In this document: piece after piece, positions 1 to 6,092 of the stretch
Numbering within the stretch: the stretch's first letter is position 1
Layout: every line of letters begins with the position of its first letter
NCBI GenBank assembly: GCA_003155465.1
Contig: PMCR01000237.1
Location: 1-6,092 of the forward strand
Source: Myxococcales bacterium
GTDB lineage: Bacteria > Myxococcota > Polyangia > Fen-1088
Length of the DNA stretch: 6,092 nt
Direction: 5' to 3'
The notes under the pieces: generated by a model
The model's database searches: none
Seen by the model: only the letters and a program-made list of their open reading frames with translations
What the model was told of the DNA's origin: nothing
Program-made: the position numbers and the translations under genes

Positions 1-308
1 ACTCTATCAAACCAGCTCCCCCTACCGCGACCCCGGCCGGGCCGCGGGGACTGGCCCCAATTGACGGCGGGCTAGGCCGAGACGCGGCTTGCGGCTAGCG
101 GGTCGCGTGGGCGAGGGCGTGTGCGAGTTCGTGAGCGATCCGCGGAAGGCGGACCGCGCGCCGCGCGCCGCGTTCCGCGTTCCGCGTTCTGCTCACGCTC
201 ACGCACACGGGAGTCGCCCACGCAGGCCGCAGTTCGCCGGCCGCTCACGCTACCGCTACCGCCCACGCTCGCCGACCGGCGCTGGACTGAGTGGGAGGGA
301 GTGAGACT
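1..308. other. Gene-free, repeat-rich GC region
   Basis: No convincing gene is seen here on either strand. Open frames exist, but they translate to Arg/Ala/Pro-dominated low-complexity peptides, as expected from GC-rich DNA. The stretch is dominated by short direct repeats: five heptamers at 154-188, CTCACG-type hexamers near 192-209 and CGCTAC-type hexamers near 248-259. It lies immediately downstream of the short PhaR-like gene, whose stop codon is at 309-311. No hairpin followed by a T tract is visible, so I could not place a terminator for that gene. Confidence 0.6.
154..188. repeat. Heptanucleotide tandem repeat, five copies
   Basis: Five head-to-tail 7-base units are read directly: CCGCGCG at 154-160 and 161-167, then CCGCGTT at 168-174, 175-181 and 182-188. 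The unit length is not a multiple of three and no gene covers it, so this is a noncoding microsatellite-like tract. Related hexamer repeats follow within 100 bases. Confidence 0.85.
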
Positions 309-557
309 TTACTCGACCTTCAGGCCGTTCTGGATGATGCGGCGAAGACCCTCGGCCCCGAGGCGCGAGCTTCGCTTCTCTTCTTCGAAGATGATCTGCG
401 CGAGGGTTGCTGACGTGAGGTCAGCCCCGCTAACGTGATCGGTCACCTTGACATCGTCGCCGTTGCGCACGAACCCGGCCACATCAGCCAGCGTTACGTA
501 GTGCTTGTCGAAGGTGTCGTAGAGCTTTCGATTCGAATAGCGCTTTATTGTTCGCAT
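309..557 (-). CDS. Short PhaR-type DNA-binding protein (PHA regulator domain only)
   Basis: The 82-residue product begins MRTIKRYSNRKLYDT and continues with YVTLADVAGFV and LAQIIFEEE. This is the signature of the polyhydroxyalkanoate synthesis regulator DNA-binding domain (PhaR N-terminal domain, about 60 residues). In family members this domain binds DNA, and in classical PhaR also PHA granules, to control phasin and PHA genes. The ATG at 555-557 was chosen because family members start directly before the IKRY motif. An in-frame TTG at 585-587 would add ten unconserved residues. The protein is much shorter than usual PhaR proteins (roughly 150-250 residues) because it stops about 20 residues after the domain, with no C-terminal accessory region. 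No PHA synthase or phasin gene is in the window, so a PHA role is family inference. The DNA-binding domain assignment is firm. Confidence 0.85.
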   Translation of the reverse strand: MRTIKRYSNRKLYDTFDKHYVTLADVAGFVRNGDDVKVTDHVSGADLTSATLAQIIFEEEKRSSRLGAEGLRRIIQNGLKVE

Positions 558-558
558 G

Positions 559-598
559 GTGTCACAAGAGAATGACACATCTTGCAACCAAGTGACAC
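559..598. promoter_or_regulatory. GTGTCA/TGACAC half-sites upstream of the PhaR-like gene
   Basis: A perfect inverted repeat, GTGTCA (559-564) and TGACAC (573-578) with an 8-base spacer, starts one base upstream of the PhaR-like ATG. A third TGACAC lies at 593-598, exactly 20 bases (about two helical turns) from the second. On the minus strand a possible -10 hexamer TAGAAT lies at 600-605, with no good -35. If that is the promoter, the sites cover the transcription start and leader, as an autorepressor operator would. The repeats are observed directly; the operator role and the identity of the binding protein are inferred. Confidence 0.4.
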
Positions 599-646
599 AA
601 TTCTAACGAAGGAAATACTGCGAGAAGTCAGCGGCAGCGCCGTACC

Positions 647-1876
647 CTACCCGCCGGCGTCCCCACGACTGACGCTGGCGTCAACTTCCCCACCGGCGAG
701 GCCAGCCGAACCCTTGCCCGAACCCGCTCCCGGCTCCACGCCCGAGATGAGCTTGCCATTCCCGTAGAGGGTGATCTTCTTCTCATAGGCTCCCGTTGCT
801 CCACCGTCGTAGCTGTAATCGTTGGCTACGTCGACCGCGCCCGCGTAGTTCGCGGTGTGGAGGCTGACTTGAATGTTGAACTGGTCGTTCATGGTGGGCT
901 GGCCGCTGGTGGTCTTGTCACCCTGTACCGCAAGCGTTCCGCTGAACGAAAGCTCCAGGTAGTGGTCAGCGCCTGGGGATGACGGCGAGACGACGACGGA
1001 CTTGGCGGCCGTCACCTTGCCCAGATTCGTGTTCGAGTAGCCAATGCTCACATAGTTGGCGGCCAGCACCACTGCCGTGCCCAATCCTTCGTCCTGGTAC
1101 CAGTAGCGAAGCGTGACCGTCGACATGTCCACCGTCTTGGGGGTCTTGTTGTCAATTCGGAGATCGAAACTGATCTGACCTGTGCTGCCGCTGGTCTTGT
1201 TCTTGAGCCACACCGCCAAGCCGTCGGTCGGTGGCGGGTCCACCGAAGCAGCGTCGCTAGAACTACCCGCGTCGCCGGAATCCCCGGTCCCGCCGGTCGA
1301 AGTAGCGGACGTGCCCCCGATGTCACCCCCGAAGGGATTGCTGGAGGTGTCGGCTCCGCCCACGCCGCCTGCGCTCGACCCGCCGGCGCCGCCCCTGCCA
1401 CCCGTGCCGGTACCACTCCTGCCGCCCGTGGCGCTGCCACCCCTACCGCCTGTGGCGCTGATCCCGCCGGTGCCACTCCTCCCGCCGCTCGTGCTCCCTC
1501 CACCCACGCTGGACGAGCCGCCTGGGCCGCCAGAACTGCCGGCGCTGCCCGGGTTGGATGTGCCGCCCTCGGGTGGCGTGGACGTGGTGGAGCCTGCAGC
1601 GCCAGCCGTTCCGTCACCGCTTGAGGTGACGGACTCGCCACCGCTGCCGCCGGTGTTGCCACCCGTGGGCTGCACCTTGGGCGCGCGCCTCACCTCGTCG
1701 GGTGCGCCGCAAGTGGCTCCCAACATCAAACCAGTAACCAGGACCGGGAGGAGCAAGCCGAGCGAGACTTCGCCGAGTCCGCCTCCTCTTGCGGCCAGCC
1801 ATCGCCGCAAGCTAATCCAACCGGTTGCAACCATCCGAGGATAGTGTCGTCTCACGGTAGGTCTATGTTCGAACAT
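647..1876 (-). CDS. Exported protein with Gly/Ser/Thr-rich linker and C-terminal CBM3
   Basis: This 409-residue protein has three parts. Residues 1-60 carry a basic stretch (RRWLAAR) and then a hydrophobic segment, LGLLLPVLVTGLMLGATC, which looks like a Sec signal or lipoprotein signal. Cys56 is a possible lipid-attachment site, but GATC is not a good lipobox. Residues about 60-218 are a low-complexity Gly/Ser/Thr/Ala linker with repeated GGRSGTGG-like blocks. Residues about 219-382 match a family 3 carbohydrate-binding module: LRYWYQDEG, HYLELSF, QFNIQVSLH and NDYSYDG near ITLYGNGKLISGVEP are characteristic CBM3 positions. CBM3 binds crystalline cellulose or related glycans. A 27-residue low-complexity tail follows, and no catalytic domain is present. 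The protein is probably surface-exposed. The start is uncertain: GTG at 1877-1879, ATG at 1874-1876 and ATG at 1832-1834 are all possible and none has a clear ribosome-binding site. Confidence 0.85.
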   Translation of the reverse strand: MFEHRPTVRRHYPRMVATGWISLRRWLAARGGGLGEVSLGLLLPVLVTGLMLGATCGAPDEVRRAPKVQPTGGNTGGSGGESVTSSGDGTAGAAGSTTSTPPEGGTSNPGSAGSSGGPGGSSSVGGGSTSGGRSGTGGISATGGRGGSATGGRSGTGTGGRGGAGGSSAGGVGGADTSSNPFGGDIGGTSATSTGGTGDSGDAGSSSDAASVDPPPTDGLAVWLKNKTSGSTGQISFDLRIDNKTPKTVDMSTVTLRYWYQDEGLGTAVVLAANYVSIGYSNTNLGKVTAAKSVVVSPSSPGADHYLELSFSGTLAVQGDKTTSGQPTMNDQFNIQVSLHTANYAGAVDVANDYSYDGGATGAYEKKITLYGNGKLISGVEPGAGSGKGSAGLAGGEVDASVSRGDAGG

Positions 1877-2089
1877 CACTTATAGAGTACCCGCAGAAGG
1901 CCTCGAAACGGAAATGCGAAGAGCACAAGACGTCAGATTTGTGTGTGCTTGACTACATTGTCCTACTCGCCGTCGCCCAGCGTGAGCGCCCAGCGGAAAG
2001 CGGCTTGCGTGAGCAGCCCGCGGCCAGCTAGCCGCGCCCCGGCCTATCCCGCGGTCCCGAATTCCACGTCAGACTTCAGCAGGCCCGTA
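1877..2089. other. Gap between caspase gene and CBM3 gene
   Basis: These 213 bases separate two minus-strand genes. They hold the GC hairpin at 2019-2036 and the unassigned promoter region of the CBM3 gene. No -35/-10 pair stood out in the region upstream of the CBM3 gene. The gap size and the hairpin suggest that the CBM3 gene is a separate transcription unit from the sigma operon, although read-through cannot be excluded. Confidence 0.4.
2019..2036. terminator. Possible hairpin after the caspase gene
   Basis: A perfect 6-base GC stem, CGCGGC (2019-2024) paired with GCCGCG (2031-2036), with a 6-base loop lies about 55 bases downstream of the caspase gene stop. It is placed as expected for a 3' end structure of the minus-strand operon. 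It has no T tract on either side, so it is at best a weak or Rho-assisted terminator. Confidence 0.25.
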
Positions 2090-3655
2090 CTAGAACGCCA
2101 CCATTCCGCCCAAAGACACGCCCACCGTCGCCCGTTGCACGCGCTGGTTGTTCAAGCGGAAGTACTCACCGCCTCCTTGCGCCGAAAGCACGAGCCATGT
2201 GCTGCGGGAGGAACGCAACATAGCTGAGGCCGTCCCACCATAGGTCAGCCCGACGGAATACGTGCTGTCGTGCCAGACATCGTGCTGGCGCACGACCGGA
2301 ACGCCGACCGTTGGCCCCAGCAACAGCGCGAACCGCTCTGCCCGGTAGAGTGGCCAGAGGGCGTCGAGCGAGAGCCCGGCGCGCAGGAACGACGATCGAT
2401 AGTCCTGAATCTGGGCATCGGAGTACGAGAACTCCGCGCGCGCACGCAACGCGAGCCTGCCTATCTGGCGCATGTAGGAAAGCGCCGCCATTCCCACCAA
2501 TGATCCGGTTCCGGAAACCGGACTGCTCTGCAGTCCAAGTTCAATGCCCAAAGAATTGGGCTGCCACAGTCCGCCCTTGTCGCGATGGTTGTCAGCATCG
2601 GCCAGGACCGGGGCCATGGACGCCGTCTCAATGACTGTCGAACTGCCTGCCGAGAGAGAGAAAGTCGTCTCGCTGACGCTGGCCAGGACCCGCCGCACGA
2701 CCCGATACTCACCGGCGGGTAGCGCCAGGTACACGTCTTCGCCCGAGGTCGATCCCAACTCCGCGATCACCTCGCCGCGTCCCTTGTGCACAACCGTATA
2801 GGTGGCGCCGGTTTCGCGTGGGAACACGATGCGAGCATCGTTGGGCCGCGTGCGAGCCAGAATCACGTCGCCCGCGCCCGACATGCGATAGTCGTAGGTC
2901 GGGTGCTGGCCGCCGACCAGGCTGGCCGCCGTGCTGGCCAGGGTGCGCCTGAACGCGAATTGATAGATCTCACCCAAGGTGACTTGCCCGTCATGTGACG
3001 AGTCAGCGGCTCCGCGCAAGCCGGCCATGATGTTGTGGGTAAAAAACGAGCCGCCGAGGTCGTCGGACTCTTGCGACAACTCGTTGGCGGTCGAAGAGGT
3101 CACGATGGCCATGCCCTTGACGCTTCCGGGATCCGCGAGATGGATCTCGTATCCCGGCGCGCGCCGGCCGCCTTTCACGCCGGTAAGCGCTCCCGACTGG
3201 CAGGCGTCGACAAAGGCCACGCGCACGTCTGCCCCGGAGAGCTGTTCGAGATACGAACGCAGATCGCGCAGGGGTAGGCGCGACGAGCCCAGCTCAAGCG
3301 CCTCCTGGTCGCCGTGGCCCGAGTAGTAGAAGAGGAACAGGGTCCGTTTGCCCTGGGCGTGCGCGCGATCGAGCTGCGTCCGCGCAGCGGCCAACGCCTC
3401 TTCCACCGCCTCGCGCTGCGCACCCTTGACAGTGATCACGCTCTCAAATTCACCCGCGCCGCGAAGCAAGCTGGCGAGCCGGCCGGCCTCTTCCTCGGCA
3501 TAGTGAAGGATCCGACCGGGGTCACGCCCCAGATTGTTGCCGATCACAACTGCGATTCGGGCTTGCTGGCTCTGCGCGCGGGCAGCCCCCTGCCCCAACG
3601 CCAAGATCAGGCAAACGCCTAACAAGCGAAGGGACATGGCTCTAGCGTACCTCAT
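2090..3655 (-). CDS. Exported caspase-like (peptidase C14) protease with C-terminal beta-barrel-like region
   Basis: The 521-residue product is a caspase-fold cysteine protease. Residues 1-27 form a Sec signal peptide (hydrophobic LLGVCLILAL, cleavage likely at ARA-QS). The caspase domain spans about 33-265: RIAVVIGNN opens it, the catalytic His is His114 in FYYSGHGD and the catalytic Cys is Cys152 in VDACQSG. GSFFTHNIMAGLRGAAD lies further on, followed by an EF-hand-like loop, DSSHDGQVTLGE (218-229). Residues about 275-350 look like a small beta-sandwich, possibly PEGA-like. Residues 367-521 show alternating strands and end in Phe, as in outer-membrane barrels of about eight strands. The enzyme therefore probably faces the periplasm or cell surface while held in the outer membrane (inference). 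The substrate is unknown; bacterial relatives often cleave after basic residues. ATG 3653-3655 was chosen because it gives a normal signal peptide. GTG at 3713-3715 overlaps the upstream stop and has GAGG five bases before it, so a 541-residue form is a real alternative. Confidence 0.88.
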   Translation of the reverse strand: MRYARAMSLRLLGVCLILALGQGAARAQSQQARIAVVIGNNLGRDPGRILHYAEEEAGRLASLLRGAGEFESVITVKGAQREAVEEALAAARTQLDRAHAQGKRTLFLFYYSGHGDQEALELGSSRLPLRDLRSYLEQLSGADVRVAFVDACQSGALTGVKGGRRAPGYEIHLADPGSVKGMAIVTSSTANELSQESDDLGGSFFTHNIMAGLRGAADSSHDGQVTLGEIYQFAFRRTLASTAASLVGGQHPTYDYRMSGAGDVILARTRPNDARIVFPRETGATYTVVHKGRGEVIAELGSTSGEDVYLALPAGEYRVVRRVLASVSETTFSLSAGSSTVIETASMAPVLADADNHRDKGGLWQPNSLGIELGLQSSPVSGTGSLVGMAALSYMRQIGRLALRARAEFSYSDAQIQDYRSSFLRAGLSLDALWPLYRAERFALLLGPTVGVPVVRQHDVWHDSTYSVGLTYGGTASAMLRSSRSTWLVLSAQGGGEYFRLNNQRVQRATVGVSLGGMVAF

Positions 3656-3710
3656 TCTTTCACAGCCATGACCCCGATAGTGACAGACCACCGCGCCACG
3701 GGTGACCACG

Positions 3711-3715
3711 GTCAC
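3711..3715 (-). promoter_or_regulatory. GTGA overlap and GAGG motif linking anti-sigma and caspase genes
   Basis: The TGA stop of the anti-sigma gene (3712-3714) overlaps an in-frame GTG of the caspase frame (3713-3715). A GAGG sequence lies five bases upstream of the GTG, within the last anti-sigma codons. This favours translational coupling. It leaves open whether the caspase gene really starts here or 60 bases later at the ATG. Confidence 0.45.
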
Positions 3716-4509
3716 GGCCGCCTCAGCAGAAATGATGTTTGCTCAGCCTCGACAGGCAAACGTGCCGCCTGCTGGATGTCACCGCTGACCGCGGCCAGCG
3801 CCTCGGCCACGGCCGTCCGAATGACTTCGTCGCCAAGTGGGGCCGGCGTCCACAGGCAGAAAACCCTTTCCCAACCGTGGTGGTCATCCAGTTCCACAGA
3901 ATCCGGCAACATGACCTCCGCCCCGGGCGGGGCATTCACCCCGGCCAACGCGTCGTCGCGGTAGTAGGGGAACAGGCGGCCAGTGTCGTCAACGCCGAAC
4001 ACCAGCAACACGCCCGACTGGTCCTTGGTGTAGGCGAAGCGCAAGCGGTCGCCTGCCAGGAAATCGTCGCCGTCCTTGACCGGAAACACGCTGTCACCGC
4101 GTTTGCAGAACGCCTCGACCAGAAGGGCGCCCTTGCTACGCACAGCGCCCGCGACGTGCTTCGCGGCACCAGATATTTTGTCCGACACCGACGGTGCCGG
4201 AGAAAATGCGCCGCGTGACATCACGAGCAAGACCGCAGCCGCAGCCGCCACTGGGGCAAGCGGCATGACAAAGCGCCACCAGGTCTTGCGGCGCCGTTCG
4301 GCCACCCTGGCCAGGATCGCGAGAGCTGCGAAGCGACTCTGGGCCTCGGGATCGGATCCCAGCAGCTCCTGGCGGGCCGCGACCAACTCCGCCAATGCAG
4401 CGGCACATCGATCACATGTGCGCAGGTGGGCGCCTGCATCCGGGGATCGCTCAGCCTCTGGGCTCGCCTCCCATCGCGCTAGCTCCAACCGCCGAACACA
4501 ATCGGTCAT
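3712..4509 (-). CDS. Zinc-finger membrane anti-sigma factor with periplasmic DUF4384-like domain
   Basis: The 265-residue product has the layout of a single-pass anti-sigma factor. The N-terminal cytosolic part has Cys4 and then His28-x3-Cys32-x2-Cys35 (HLRTCDRC), the zinc anti-sigma motif that grips the sigma factor. A transmembrane helix covers about residues 80-97, preceded by the basic ERRRKTWWR, which predicts the N-terminus in the cytoplasm. The outer part, about 125-245, with GDSVFPVKDGDDFLAGDRLRF split by charged turns, LLVFGVDDTGRLFPYY and LPDSVELDD, resembles DUF4384, a domain often found in or beside bacterial caspase-like proteins. It probably senses an envelope signal and releases the sigma factor encoded just upstream. 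Its ATG overlaps the sigma stop by four bases and its stop overlaps a GTG of the caspase frame, so the three genes are co-translated. The sensor role of the outer domain is inferred. Confidence 0.82.
   Translation of the reverse strand: MTDCVRRLELARWEASPEAERSPDAGAHLRTCDRCAAALAELVAARQELLGSDPEAQSRFAALAILARVAERRRKTWWRFVMPLAPVAAAAAVLLVMSRGAFSPAPSVSDKISGAAKHVAGAVRSKGALLVEAFCKRGDSVFPVKDGDDFLAGDRLRFAYTKDQSGVLLVFGVDDTGRLFPYYRDDALAGVNAPPGAEVMLPDSVELDDHHGWERVFCLWTPAPLGDEVIRTAVAEALAAVSGDIQQAARLPVEAEQTSFLLRRP
4506..4509 (-). promoter_or_regulatory. ATGA stop/start overlap between sigma and anti-sigma genes
   Basis: The sigma gene TGA (4506-4508) and the anti-sigma ATG (4507-4509) share bases. This overlap is typical of sigma/anti-sigma pairs, where coupling keeps the two proteins near equal amounts. 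Confidence 0.8.
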
Positions 4510-5072
4510 GAATTCCCCTCCCTCCTGGTCGTTCCCCCCTCGGGCTCCGCTGCTCCTAGCAAGTCCCGAGCGATTCTCGCAACTTTGCGCAGTCGATTGA
4601 AAACCGTTCGCCGCGTGATACCCAGGGATTCTGCAATCTCGACCTGCGACATCCCATCGACGTAGTGCAGAACCGCCACGGTCGCGCCAGCCTCACCGCA
4701 GCGGTCCAGCACGGCAGCCGCGAAATCGCGGTCCACGTGTCGCCCCTCCATCGATCCTGACGACGACGGCCGCATCCGCAAAGACGCTGCAGCGCGTGTG
4801 TGAACCTTGATCTCCCGGATCTGGTTCAAGCAAACATTTGTGGATACGCGATAGAGATAGCGAAGGGCATCCTCGTCGTTTGGAAAAGATGGCCCCCGCG
4901 TAAGCACGCGAACAAACGCCTCCTGGGTCGCGTCCCGGGCCGCCGCCTGCGATTGCAGCATACGCCGACAGTGGGCGTAGATCGCCGGCGCGTACTTCTG
5001 GTACAACGCGGCAAGGGCGGTCTCGCTTATTCTTTCCACGACTTGTCGGCTCGCCTCTCGACCGACGTTCAT
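4506..5072 (-). CDS. ECF-type RNA polymerase sigma factor
   Basis: The 188-residue protein has the two domains of an extracytoplasmic-function sigma-70 factor. Region 2 runs from about residue 17 to 88 (LYQKYAPAIYAHCRRML, DATQEAFVRVL, LYRVSTNVCLNQIR); it binds core polymerase and melts the -10 element. Region 4 runs from about 127 to 172 (VLHYVDGMSQVEIAESLGITRRTVFNRLRK); it is a helix-turn-helix that reads the -35 element. There is no region 1 or 3, as expected for ECF factors. It heads the operon with its anti-sigma factor and the caspase gene, and ECF factors commonly activate their own promoter. The ATG at 5070-5072 was chosen because it leaves a normal-length N-terminus before region 2. 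The frame stays open upstream to about 5276, which would add up to 68 residues containing five Cys and no recognisable domain. No strong ribosome-binding site marks the chosen ATG, so the start is uncertain. Confidence 0.88.
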   Translation of the reverse strand: MNVGREASRQVVERISETALAALYQKYAPAIYAHCRRMLQSQAAARDATQEAFVRVLTRGPSFPNDEDALRYLYRVSTNVCLNQIREIKVHTRAAASLRMRPSSSGSMEGRHVDRDFAAAVLDRCGEAGATVAVLHYVDGMSQVEIAESLGITRRTVFNRLRKVARIARDLLGAAEPEGGTTRREGNS

Positions 5073-5253
5073 CAAAGCATAGTCGGGCGAGCCGCTGGAA
5101 AAAAACGGTCCCGCGCATCCCCCGGCCCTCGCTGACGCCCAAGCCGCGTCCCCGCCGCACAAAGTCACCTGCCCCAGTTCGTCGAGCAGACCAAGGCCAC
5201 AGGCCGATCTGGCCTCCGCGCAAACAGTGATCCTGAACGTGGCGGGCCGCGTG

Positions 5254-5283
5254 CCAAGCATCGATTCTCCAAGCATCGATTCT
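5254..5283. repeat. 15-base tandem duplication
   Basis: The unit CCAAGCATCGATTCT occurs twice head to tail (5254-5268 and 5269-5283) without mismatch. It lies about 180 bases upstream of the chosen sigma start. If the sigma frame began at its farthest upstream start, the repeat would encode a duplicated five-residue block. A recent replication-slippage duplication is the simplest explanation; a paired regulatory site is possible. Confidence 0.85.
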
Positions 5284-5423
5284 CAATGAGAGAGAGCCCC
5301 GCGAATTCCGCGGAGCAAATCACCCTCCTCCGCCGCTTGAACACGCGAGCTCGGCCTGGTGGGAACGGTGGGTGCAGCGCCGCAGGGGGGCGAAGGCCAC
5401 GGGCACCAATCGGCAGGTCCCGC

Positions 5424-5452
5424 GTAGGGGCGGGTTCCAAACCCGCCTCTGC
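5424..5452. repeat. 29-base GC-rich palindrome, REP-like dispersed element
   Basis: GTAGGGGCGGGTT (5424-5436) can pair with AACCCGCCTCTGC (5440-5452) across a 3-base loop. This gives a 13-pair stem with two G-U pairs and no mismatch. The core GTAGGGGCGGGTT/AACCCGCC resembles extragenic palindromes scattered in several high-GC bacterial phyla, whose spurious translations read like GFETRPYA or GFKPAPT; similar peptides (GFGTRPYA) appear in the shadow frames here. Only one copy is in the window, so dispersion is not shown here. It could act as a bidirectional hairpin between the divergent genes. Confidence 0.65.
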
Positions 5453-5604
5453 ATCCGGCCATGACGACGAAGGCCCCATCTCCGTCAAGAACCTCGGAGA
5501 GGCGGGTGCCTTGCCGGCGGAGTGTGAGTTGGTGTACAACCACCTCCTCCTTTGCTGCTTCCCACTTGTCCATTCTTGGTGGTTGGGGAGCGCGGACAAC
5601 CAAC

Positions 5605-5608
5605 GAGG
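5605..5608 (+). promoter_or_regulatory. Candidate ribosome-binding site for the divergent outer-membrane gene
   Basis: GAGG at 5605-5608 lies 11 bases before the ATG at 5620, slightly farther than ideal. It supports the ATG as the start of the signal-peptide protein. Confidence 0.4.
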
Positions 5609-5619
5609 CTCTCCCCCCA

Positions 5620-6092
5620 ATGACCACAACCCCCCCCCCAAGAAACCGAGTCGCCCTTCGCCTCCTCTCCACGGCCTTCTTGGCCACGGCTGTGCTGACT
5701 TTCGGCGGGACCGCGTCAGCCCGAGGCAAGGCCAAACCCAAGGCTGAAGCCGCTGCCAGCAATGAAACGCCTGCAGCCCCGGCGGCAGAGGCCCCGGCAG
5801 CGGCAGCTCCGGCAGCGGCAGCCCCGGCAGCGGCAGCTCCGGCAGCGGCAGCCCCGGCAGCGGCAGCCCCGGCAGCGGCAGCCCCGGCAGCGGAGACTCC
5901 GGCTCCCACCGCGGATGAGCCGTCCGCCCCAGCCGCTGCCGCCAAGGCCCAACGCAAGATCGGGGGAAACGCCACGCAGCTTGGAATATCCCCGCAAGAT
6001 ACCCTGGCGGGTGGTGCCTCGGGACCACCCGCAGTGACCGAGGCGGCACCCGTCGAGGATTGGGGTTTCAAGTTCCACGGCTTCTTCCGCGG
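5620..6092 (+). CDS. Partial outer-membrane barrel (porin-like) protein with signal peptide and Ala/Pro repeat spacer
   Basis: This frame is open from the ATG at 5620 to the window edge (157 codons plus two bases), so the gene is cut at its 3' end. Residues 1-34 are a clear Sec signal peptide: RNRVALRLL, hydrophobic AFLATAVLTF, cleavage at ASA-R. A Lys/Ala stretch follows, then residues 53-92 are eight tandem Ala-Pro-Ala-Ala-Ala-type pentapeptides encoded by 15-base DNA repeats. Residues 93-145 are more varied and Ala/Pro-rich. The visible end, EDWGFKFHGFFR, resembles the first strand of outer-membrane porins, notably maltoporin-like or carbohydrate-porin proteins that begin with FxFHGYxR. 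The spacer would lie in the periplasm, perhaps reaching the peptidoglycan. The barrel family is a tentative call from about ten residues; export is firm. Codons 4-7 contain ten consecutive C bases, and losing or gaining one base would end translation early. The antisense and other-frame readings of this region are repeat artefacts. Confidence 0.78.
   Translation, partial: MTTTPPPRNRVALRLLSTAFLATAVLTFGGTASARGKAKPKAEAAASNETPAAPAAEAPAAAAPAAAAPAAAAPAAAAPAAAAPAAAAPAAETPAPTADEPSAPAAAAKAQRKIGGNATQLGISPQDTLAGGASGPPAVTEAAPVEDWGFKFHGFFR
5630..5639 (+). repeat. C10 homopolymer inside the coding start of the outer-membrane gene
   Basis: Ten consecutive C bases run through codons 4-7, directly after the start, with another six C bases just upstream at 5613-5618. 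Loss of one C gives a stop at 5696-5698 (old coordinates), and gain of one gives a stop around 5745-5747. Either change would therefore abolish the protein. Confidence 0.85.
5776..5895 (+). repeat. Eight-unit 15-base tandem repeat (Ala/Pro pentapeptide)
   Basis: Six units at 5791-5880 are GCNCCGGCAGCGGCA-type and differ only at the third base (C or T). They are flanked by a degenerate first unit (5776-5790) and last unit (5881-5895, ending GAG). The unit length is divisible by three, so copy-number change would lengthen or shorten the periplasmic spacer without breaking the frame. Confidence 0.92.

Follow-up and report, generated by a model that had tools for sequence, protein, structure and literature searches.

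A sigma factor, anti-sigma factor and caspase homologue operon conserved in the Myxococcota: a candidate envelope-signalling switch

Complex bacteria possess many caspase homologues, the roles of which are mostly unexplained. Here we describe a three-gene operon on a stretch of 6,092 nucleotides from a Myxococcales bacterium (contig PMCR01000237.1, positions 1 to 6,092; hereafter the window). A Pfam scan of its open reading frames (ORFs) identified, on the minus strand and in the same direction, an extracytoplasmic function (ECF) sigma factor, an anti-sigma-like protein and a caspase homologue, the three genes reported in a preliminary description made from the letters of the window. We consider it fairly probable that these genes constitute an autoregulated envelope-signalling operon, the main product of which is a caspase homologue tethered to the outer membrane. 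This reading builds on features established by computation, namely the gene content, the conservation of the gene order, the intact catalytic residues and the recurrence of promoter motifs upstream of the operon. The main features are the following.

4506..5039, minus strand: ECF sigma factor, 177 amino acids (Pfam Sigma70_r2 and r4_2; most likely start GTG 5039 by a codon-position test)
3712..4509, minus strand: class I anti-sigma factor, 265 amino acids, with one predicted transmembrane (TM) helix and a DUF4384-type C-terminus (from relatives and an AlphaFold2, AF2, model)
4405..4428, minus strand: zinc motif Hx3Cx2C, residues 28-35, invariant in close homologues
4129..4140, minus strand: RSKG, a basic-Gly site between the TM helix and DUF4384, residues 124-127, candidate protease site (from the alignment)
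3724..4131, minus strand: DUF4384-type periplasmic beta domain, residues 127-262 (PF14326 of relatives and AF2 model)
2090..3637, minus strand: exported caspase homologue with C-terminal barrel, 515 amino acids (PF00656; start at ATG 3637 by a codon-position test)
3314..3316, minus strand: catalytic His108
3200..3202, minus strand: catalytic Cys146
2096..2557, minus strand: predicted 8-stranded OmpA-like beta-barrel, residues 361-514 (AF2 strands and Foldseek)

Gene order across the Myxococcota

The preliminary description had made its proposal dependent on the gene order being conserved in relatives, and the order proves to be kept well beyond the clade of the window. The near relatives are metagenome-assembled Myxococcales or Deltaproteobacteria (one is titled Proteobacteria, and one near caspase relative is named from a Polyangia bacterium), and the order sigma, anti-sigma, caspase is present in 10 of the 10 close loci found with the anti-sigma factor. 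In L009 the caspase runs off the contig, and in L001 the match to sigma stops where the sequence is undetermined. In the phylum, the anti-sigma factor has matches in at least 72 of 377 genomes, and 29 new loci examined from this search contain a caspase in 26 cases and a sigma factor in 27, the two loci without sigma lying near contig ends. Searching with the caspase gave matches at E<=1e-15 in at least 129 of the 377 genomes. Both counts are lower bounds, because only the best candidates of each genome (seven for the anti-sigma factor, three for the caspase) were scored.

The census of caspases in the Myxococcota was based on 110 matches: 98 genomes contributed their best match among those listed, and 12 additional matches came from the same genomes. 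Among the 93 that have at least 1400 bases of upstream sequence, 83 are preceded by both partners, one by the anti-sigma factor only and nine by neither; the remaining 17 have too short an upstream stretch and are not counted (five with both partners, seven with anti-sigma only and five with neither). Three of the nine caspases lacking upstream partners (L106, L123 and L147) have sigma and anti-sigma genes behind them on the same strand, and two more (L059 and L066) have a sigma gene there, cut by the end of the locus. A variant order is likewise observed in L152, where sigma and anti-sigma genes lie behind the caspase on the same strand, and in L146, where a sigma gene does.

Taking the anti-sigma factor as the point of departure, a caspase lies behind 122 of the 127 members that have a sigma gene in front, in a set that requires either a caspase or more than 900 bases behind the anti-sigma gene and is enriched for caspase loci (of 141 anti-sigma factors, nine without sigma and five with short downstream sequence were left out). 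As a separate observation, the short loci L175 and L184 contain genes for sigma and for a DUF4384 anti-sigma-like protein and show no match to the caspase, and by eye the basic-Gly site is absent from them.

The three gene products

The sigma factor identity given in the preliminary description is borne out by matches to Sigma70_r2 (1.4e-13) and Sigma70_r4_2 (1.1e-07), and the protein scores 76.1 bits against TIGR02937, for which the cut-off is 42.9. Region 3 does not appear among the matches listed (25 of 31 Pfam matches), which agrees with the possession of regions 2 and 4 only that defines ECF sigma factors. The start at ATG 5072 (188 amino acids) proposed earlier has to be revised, as this codon is AAC in L006 and codons 1-11 lack third-position bias, with 17/37/28 mismatches by codon position in the window and five relatives. 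In the same comparison the third-position excess begins at codon 12, the invariant GTG 5039, and since the coding bias begins there and not at ATG 5072, GTG 5039 is the most likely start. A 63-residue N-terminal extension, from an ORF beginning at 5261, was also considered and rejected: its mismatches are even over the codon positions (224/248/266, counted without L001 and L003, the carriers of the two indels that it shows among close relatives), although both indels are multiples of three. The 4-base overlap with the anti-sigma gene stands, as ATGA at 4506-4509, and a 4-base overlap of this kind is found in 60 of 86 related operons; four of these 86 loci gave absurd anti-sigma-to-caspase distances, and distance was left unused.

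The preliminary description was probably right in kind when it placed a DUF4384-like domain on the anti-sigma factor. The window protein itself has no notable match in the Pfam scan, PF14326 (DUF4384) included, but PF14326 is precomputed in 14 among 120 listed homologues (of 156 found) and reaches E<=0.1 in 17 of 40 wider relatives drawn from 82 full-length ones, with a best value of 4.9e-05. A profile of 40 relatives matches ChrR at 8.5e-05 in its N-terminal part and, more weakly, 3hug_B (0.027), DdvA (0.12) and RsiW (0.48), and zf-HC2 is detected in seven of the 40 scanned relatives. Homology of the N-terminal domain to solved members such as ChrR assigns the protein to the class I anti-sigma factors (ASDI) and supports its proposed role as the likely inhibitor of the sigma factor. 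The window protein has the motif of the zinc-binding anti-sigma (ZAS) factors, Hx3Cx2C, which is unchanged throughout the close homologues (39 of 39). As only 25 of 82 wider relatives have this motif, zinc does not define the family. The AF2 model of the protein (mean predicted local distance difference test score, pLDDT, of 78) consists of four N-terminal helices, the last of which runs through the hydrophobic stretch, a low-confidence linker (residues 97-120) and the beta domain. Foldseek found no match to this model at E<=0.001, and a sequence search of the PDB with the window anti-sigma factor alone, or with the caspase alone, returned no match. Signal peptide and TM helix were assigned by eye, hydropathy and models.

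The third protein matches Peptidase_C14 (PF00656) at 1.2e-12. His108, Asp144 and Cys146 are all invariant, in 39 of 39 close and in 110 of 110 wide sequences, and the p20 fold together with the His-Cys dyad identifies the protein as a caspase homologue (orthocaspase, C14). The catalytic cysteine, numbered 152 in the preliminary description, is residue 146 of the 515-residue form and residue 172 of a 541-residue form. The invariant aspartate two residues before it is compatible with a preference for a basic residue at P1, the activity itself being putative. A second 4-base overlap, between the anti-sigma and caspase genes, had also been described; it needs a start at GTG 3715, which was rejected. 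The stretch from this codon to ATG 3637 is without codon-position bias (144/121/128 mismatches in the window and seven relatives), has single-base frame-breaking gaps in L004, L006 and L007, and contains a TAG in L001. In the same set third-position bias appears only after ATG 3637. This is most likely the start of the gene, which therefore follows the anti-sigma gene after a gap of 74 nucleotides.

In the AF2 model of the caspase (mean pLDDT 75) a signal-peptide-like helix leads into the caspase domain, after which come a small beta domain and then eight long strands. Foldseek relates the caspase domain to caspase-8, -3 and -7, and the barrel part to OmpA, OmpX and NspA (best E 2.3e-08). The C-terminal residue of the window protein is Phe, and the model thus combines the eight strands and the aromatic end of an OmpA-type barrel. 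Because the model ends in such a barrel, the caspase is probably anchored in the outer membrane and faces the periplasm; the export proposed in the preliminary description agrees with this predicted topology and with the signal-peptide-like start. Barrels of eight strands normally have both termini in the periplasm, and the caspase domain would therefore share its compartment with DUF4384.

Between the TM helix and DUF4384, the anti-sigma factors carry a conserved basic-Gly site. The aligned position 126 is K or R in 78 of 82 anti-sigma factors, and the full [RK]x[KR]G is present in 61 of them. A [KR]G within 55 residues past the TM helix occurs in 118 of the 122 anti-sigma factors with a caspase and in four of the five without, and the strict form in 86 of the 122 and three of the five. 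By eye only, the site is missing from most DUF4384 proteins outside the module. Orthocaspases are reported to prefer a basic P1 residue (PMC8283722). The shared predicted compartment, the intact dyad, this preference and the conserved site all speak for feedback of the caspase on the anti-sigma factor, a step that we prefer but hold to be more doubtful than not.

Promoter motifs and flanking genes

The upstream regions of 90 distinct sigma genes, 87 of which have an anti-sigma gene directly behind, were compared. GGTGACA-N15-KGTGTY was found in 11 of the 90 (shuffle mean 0.00) and CTTTC-N17-GGGTC also in 11 (shuffle mean 0.02), each with one spacing only. The shuffle values are post hoc, since both motifs were picked by eye from a list of k-mer dyads and then tested; the first k-mer dyad search did not rise above shuffles (observed maximum 14, shuffle maxima 12-16). 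These occurrences support the view that putative sigma-type promoters precede a good part of the operons (22/90), and suggest that the sigma switch turns on the caspase.

A strict version of the second motif, TTNCTTTC-N17-GGGTC, has a single match in each of seven out of 11 genomes, all at the sigma/anti-sigma/caspase operon, and its backward control gave one match over all 11. The strict motif fixes about 12 bases, so that chance should produce few matches, and the searched sequence contains no other close copy of it. The first motif has 38 matches in 12 genomes, versus three backward, and 11 of the 38 lie in front of caspase genes. Its targets were sought at 30 loci as the longest ORF starting within 260 bases, and Pfam was run on 18 chosen ORFs, which comprise DUF2807 (three), an outer-membrane protein (OMP) barrel, a weak autotransporter barrel, TonB_C, MMPL, TSP3 repeats, an AAA protein, DUF3881, one operon sigma gene and seven ORFs without a family. 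In the clade of the window, TTTTTCC-N12-16-CTATGC stands at the operon in five of seven related genomes (not in G001 or G004), with one further match elsewhere (G005) and two in the backward control (both in G007). Two candidate control elements are located in the window itself.

5076..5105, minus strand: conserved promoter-like block immediately ahead of the sigma gene, T-run, 17-nucleotide spacer and TATGCT (alignment of the window and seven close loci)
3702..3715, no strand assigned: palindrome GTGACC-N2-GGTCAC, at the border between the anti-sigma stop and the intergenic gap

The arms of the palindrome are the same in the window and seven relatives, the window differing at one central base, and it may be a regulatory site ahead of the caspase.

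Several neighbouring genes recur around the operon. Downstream, nucleotides 647-1879 encode a lipoprotein-like, Gly/Ser-rich protein with a C-terminal CBM3 domain (Pfam), a relative of which comes after the caspase in L001-L007, and nucleotides 309-587 encode a short PhaR-type DNA-binding protein (PHB_acc_N, Pfam), with relatives behind the operon in L002, L003, L004, L006 and L007. At the other end, nucleotides 5620-6092 hold a divergent gene, cut by the end of the window, with a signal-peptide-like start and Ala/Pro repeats. In L001-L007 its tblastn matches keep the divergent upstream position, in L008 and L010 they come after the caspase, and the full ORFs in L004 and L010 are of about 700 amino acids and outer-membrane-protein-like.

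Proposed mechanism, rival explanations and known systems

The model that we propose is that the anti-sigma factor, through its single TM helix, would hold the sigma factor at the inner membrane, with its DUF4384 domain in the periplasm, while the caspase domain would face the same compartment, suspended from an outer-membrane barrel of eight strands. A change in the envelope, the signal that we infer, would inactivate the anti-sigma factor, and the sigma factor would then transcribe its own operon and raise the caspase, together with a few lipoprotein and OMP genes in some lineages. The DUF4384 and caspase domains would touch each other, and the caspase would act back on the anti-sigma factor, with a cut at the basic-Gly site after the TM helix as the most likely route. 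The preliminary description had already envisaged an envelope-signalling circuit, and the conserved order, the anti-sigma N-terminal domain, the predicted export and the promoters speak for it; the basic-Gly site is compatible with its further suggestion, still hypothetical, that the caspase processes the anti-sigma factor. The safest reading is an autoregulated envelope switch with an outer-membrane caspase as its principal product.

Several observations weigh against the model. Four of the 93 caspases (L071, L073, L077 and L079, in short loci) are without a partner on either side. The barrel was predicted from a single protein. Among the complete wider caspases, 56 of 107 have Phe as their last residue and many are longer, so the C-terminal part of the family varies. 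The two motifs together cover 22 of the 90 upstream regions and leave 68 with neither, and the block in the window's clade (T-run-N17-TATGCT) looks more like a housekeeping promoter, its dependence on the sigma factor being putative. The strict motif is lacking in four of the 11 genomes; these were chosen because their operon carries a shorter form of the motif, and the strict pattern misses degenerate targets, so that a sole match does not prove a regulon of one operon. The 12 genomes searched with the first motif were similarly made up of 10 with the motif at the operon and two with a variant. Finally, the basic-Gly site may be structural or serve another protease and is perhaps not specific to the caspase, because it also occurs in four of the five anti-sigma factors without an adjoining caspase, which weakens it as a caspase-specific mark.

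It has to be considered a serious contender, with a chance somewhat short of even, that the caspase is purely an effector. DUF4384 would then sense some other cue, the sigma factor would be freed by a separate site-1 protease or by a change of conformation, and the caspase would act on other envelope proteins and leave the anti-sigma factor untouched. In seven of the 11 genomes the strict motif matches at the operon alone, and the caspase would therefore be the only non-regulatory product there; several other promoter targets are envelope proteins, and the basic-Gly site exists also without an adjoining caspase. Such an effector would leave unexplained how rarely the DUF4384 anti-sigma factor and the caspase are separated, given their pairing in 122 of 127 cases, albeit in a caspase-enriched set. 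Another explanation is that DUF4384 on the anti-sigma factor would dock or inhibit the caspase in trans, or that the barrel protein would shield the anti-sigma factor from another protease, as the receptor signalling domain does in cell-surface signalling. Among cyanobacterial orthocaspases, 23 (19 true and four pseudo) are reported to have DUF4384 as an accessory domain (PMC8283722), and the set of a sigma factor, an anti-sigma factor and a barrel with an N-terminal periplasmic domain resembles cell-surface signalling (PMC11637429). Contact between DUF4384 and the caspase is hypothetical, however, and the catalytic residues, intact in 110 of 110 sequences, go beyond the needs of pure docking, which leads us to regard this explanation as tentative and rather unlikely.

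Even less likely, in our estimate, is a caspase-based analogue of cell-surface signalling, in which the barrel caspase, in place of a signalling domain, would cut the DUF4384 anti-sigma factor at the basic-Gly site. Transcription would thereby learn how the barrel is assembled, or in what state it is, in the outer membrane, and the caspase would positively feed back on itself. Such a system would give a caspase the part of the site-1 protease in transmembrane signalling of bacteria. For the metacaspases of Myxococcus a role in programmed cell death has been considered conceivable (Asplund-Samuelsson et al. 2012, PMC3501461); here the sigma switch would induce a caspase that kills the cell in the course of development. 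The signal-peptide-like start and the predicted barrel would, however, make the caspase act outside the cytoplasm, and we hold this explanation to be improbable. That the genes are chance neighbours with no functional link is contradicted by the census, with both partners in 83 of 93 loci across the phylum, and by the 4-base sigma/anti-sigma overlap in 60 of 86 operons, and its probability is close to negligible.

What emerges is one caspase family linked, throughout the Myxococcota, with a defined pair of signalling proteins, with promoter motifs that recur, with a predicted place at the periplasmic face of the outer membrane and with a site in a candidate substrate. The question of the caspase's role thereby becomes one of simple tests in a tractable myxobacterium, and a gene pairing that has long been noticed is made testable.

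The pairing of sigma and caspase genes is itself already known, because a 2012 report describes sigma-70 genes in four metacaspase operons of M. xanthus DK 1622, and also such operons in Anaeromyxobacter, Haliangium, Sorangium, Ralstonia and Fibrobacter (Asplund-Samuelsson et al. 2012, PMC3501461). Compared by description, those Myxococcus operons share with the present one a caspase-homologue gene predicted to lie in an operon with a sigma-70 gene. They differ in that the main text of the report has 0 occurrences of 'anti-sigma', and its section 13 is without DUF4384, barrel tether, promoters or regulon. A literature search combining DUF4384, anti-sigma, sigma and caspase, which covered listings and passages of PMC8999054, PMC6426788, PMC7475262, PMC8283722, PMC8103513, PMC7406223 and PMC8929069, found no account of a DUF4384 anti-sigma factor, a barrel tether or the promoters, an entry in an ECF classification being possible, and in the available text of PMC8929069 the terms 'anti-sigma factor' and 'caspase family protein' occur in unrelated places.

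The general layout recalls cell-surface signalling, which is described as an autoregulated system of an ECF sigma factor, a membrane anti-sigma factor with a periplasmic C-terminal domain and an outer-membrane barrel with an N-terminal periplasmic domain, and in which the signalling domain of FoxA shields FoxR from proteolysis (PMC11637429). In contrast, the present operon has a small 8-stranded barrel, with a caspase where the signalling domain sits. The Pfam scan, which missed the window DUF4384 and can miss divergent domains, detected no STN, plug, TonB-dependent receptor or FecR domain, and the operon does not display the TonB-dependent transducer with STN and the FecR-type anti-sigma factor that characterize cell-surface signalling. 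As in the Sigma-E/RseA/DegS system (PMC8103513), the anti-sigma factor has a periplasmic domain that a periplasmic protease could cut; here the protease would be a caspase homologue of the same operon, tied to the outer and not to the inner membrane, and the cutting is hypothetical. ECF54 sigma factors with CHAT, subtilase or carboxypeptidase neighbours offer a further parallel, since a caspase-superfamily neighbour is proposed to act by proteolysis (PMC8999054). Whereas ECF54 is described there without an anti-sigma factor, the present operon combines an anti-sigma factor with a caspase that is predicted to be exported.

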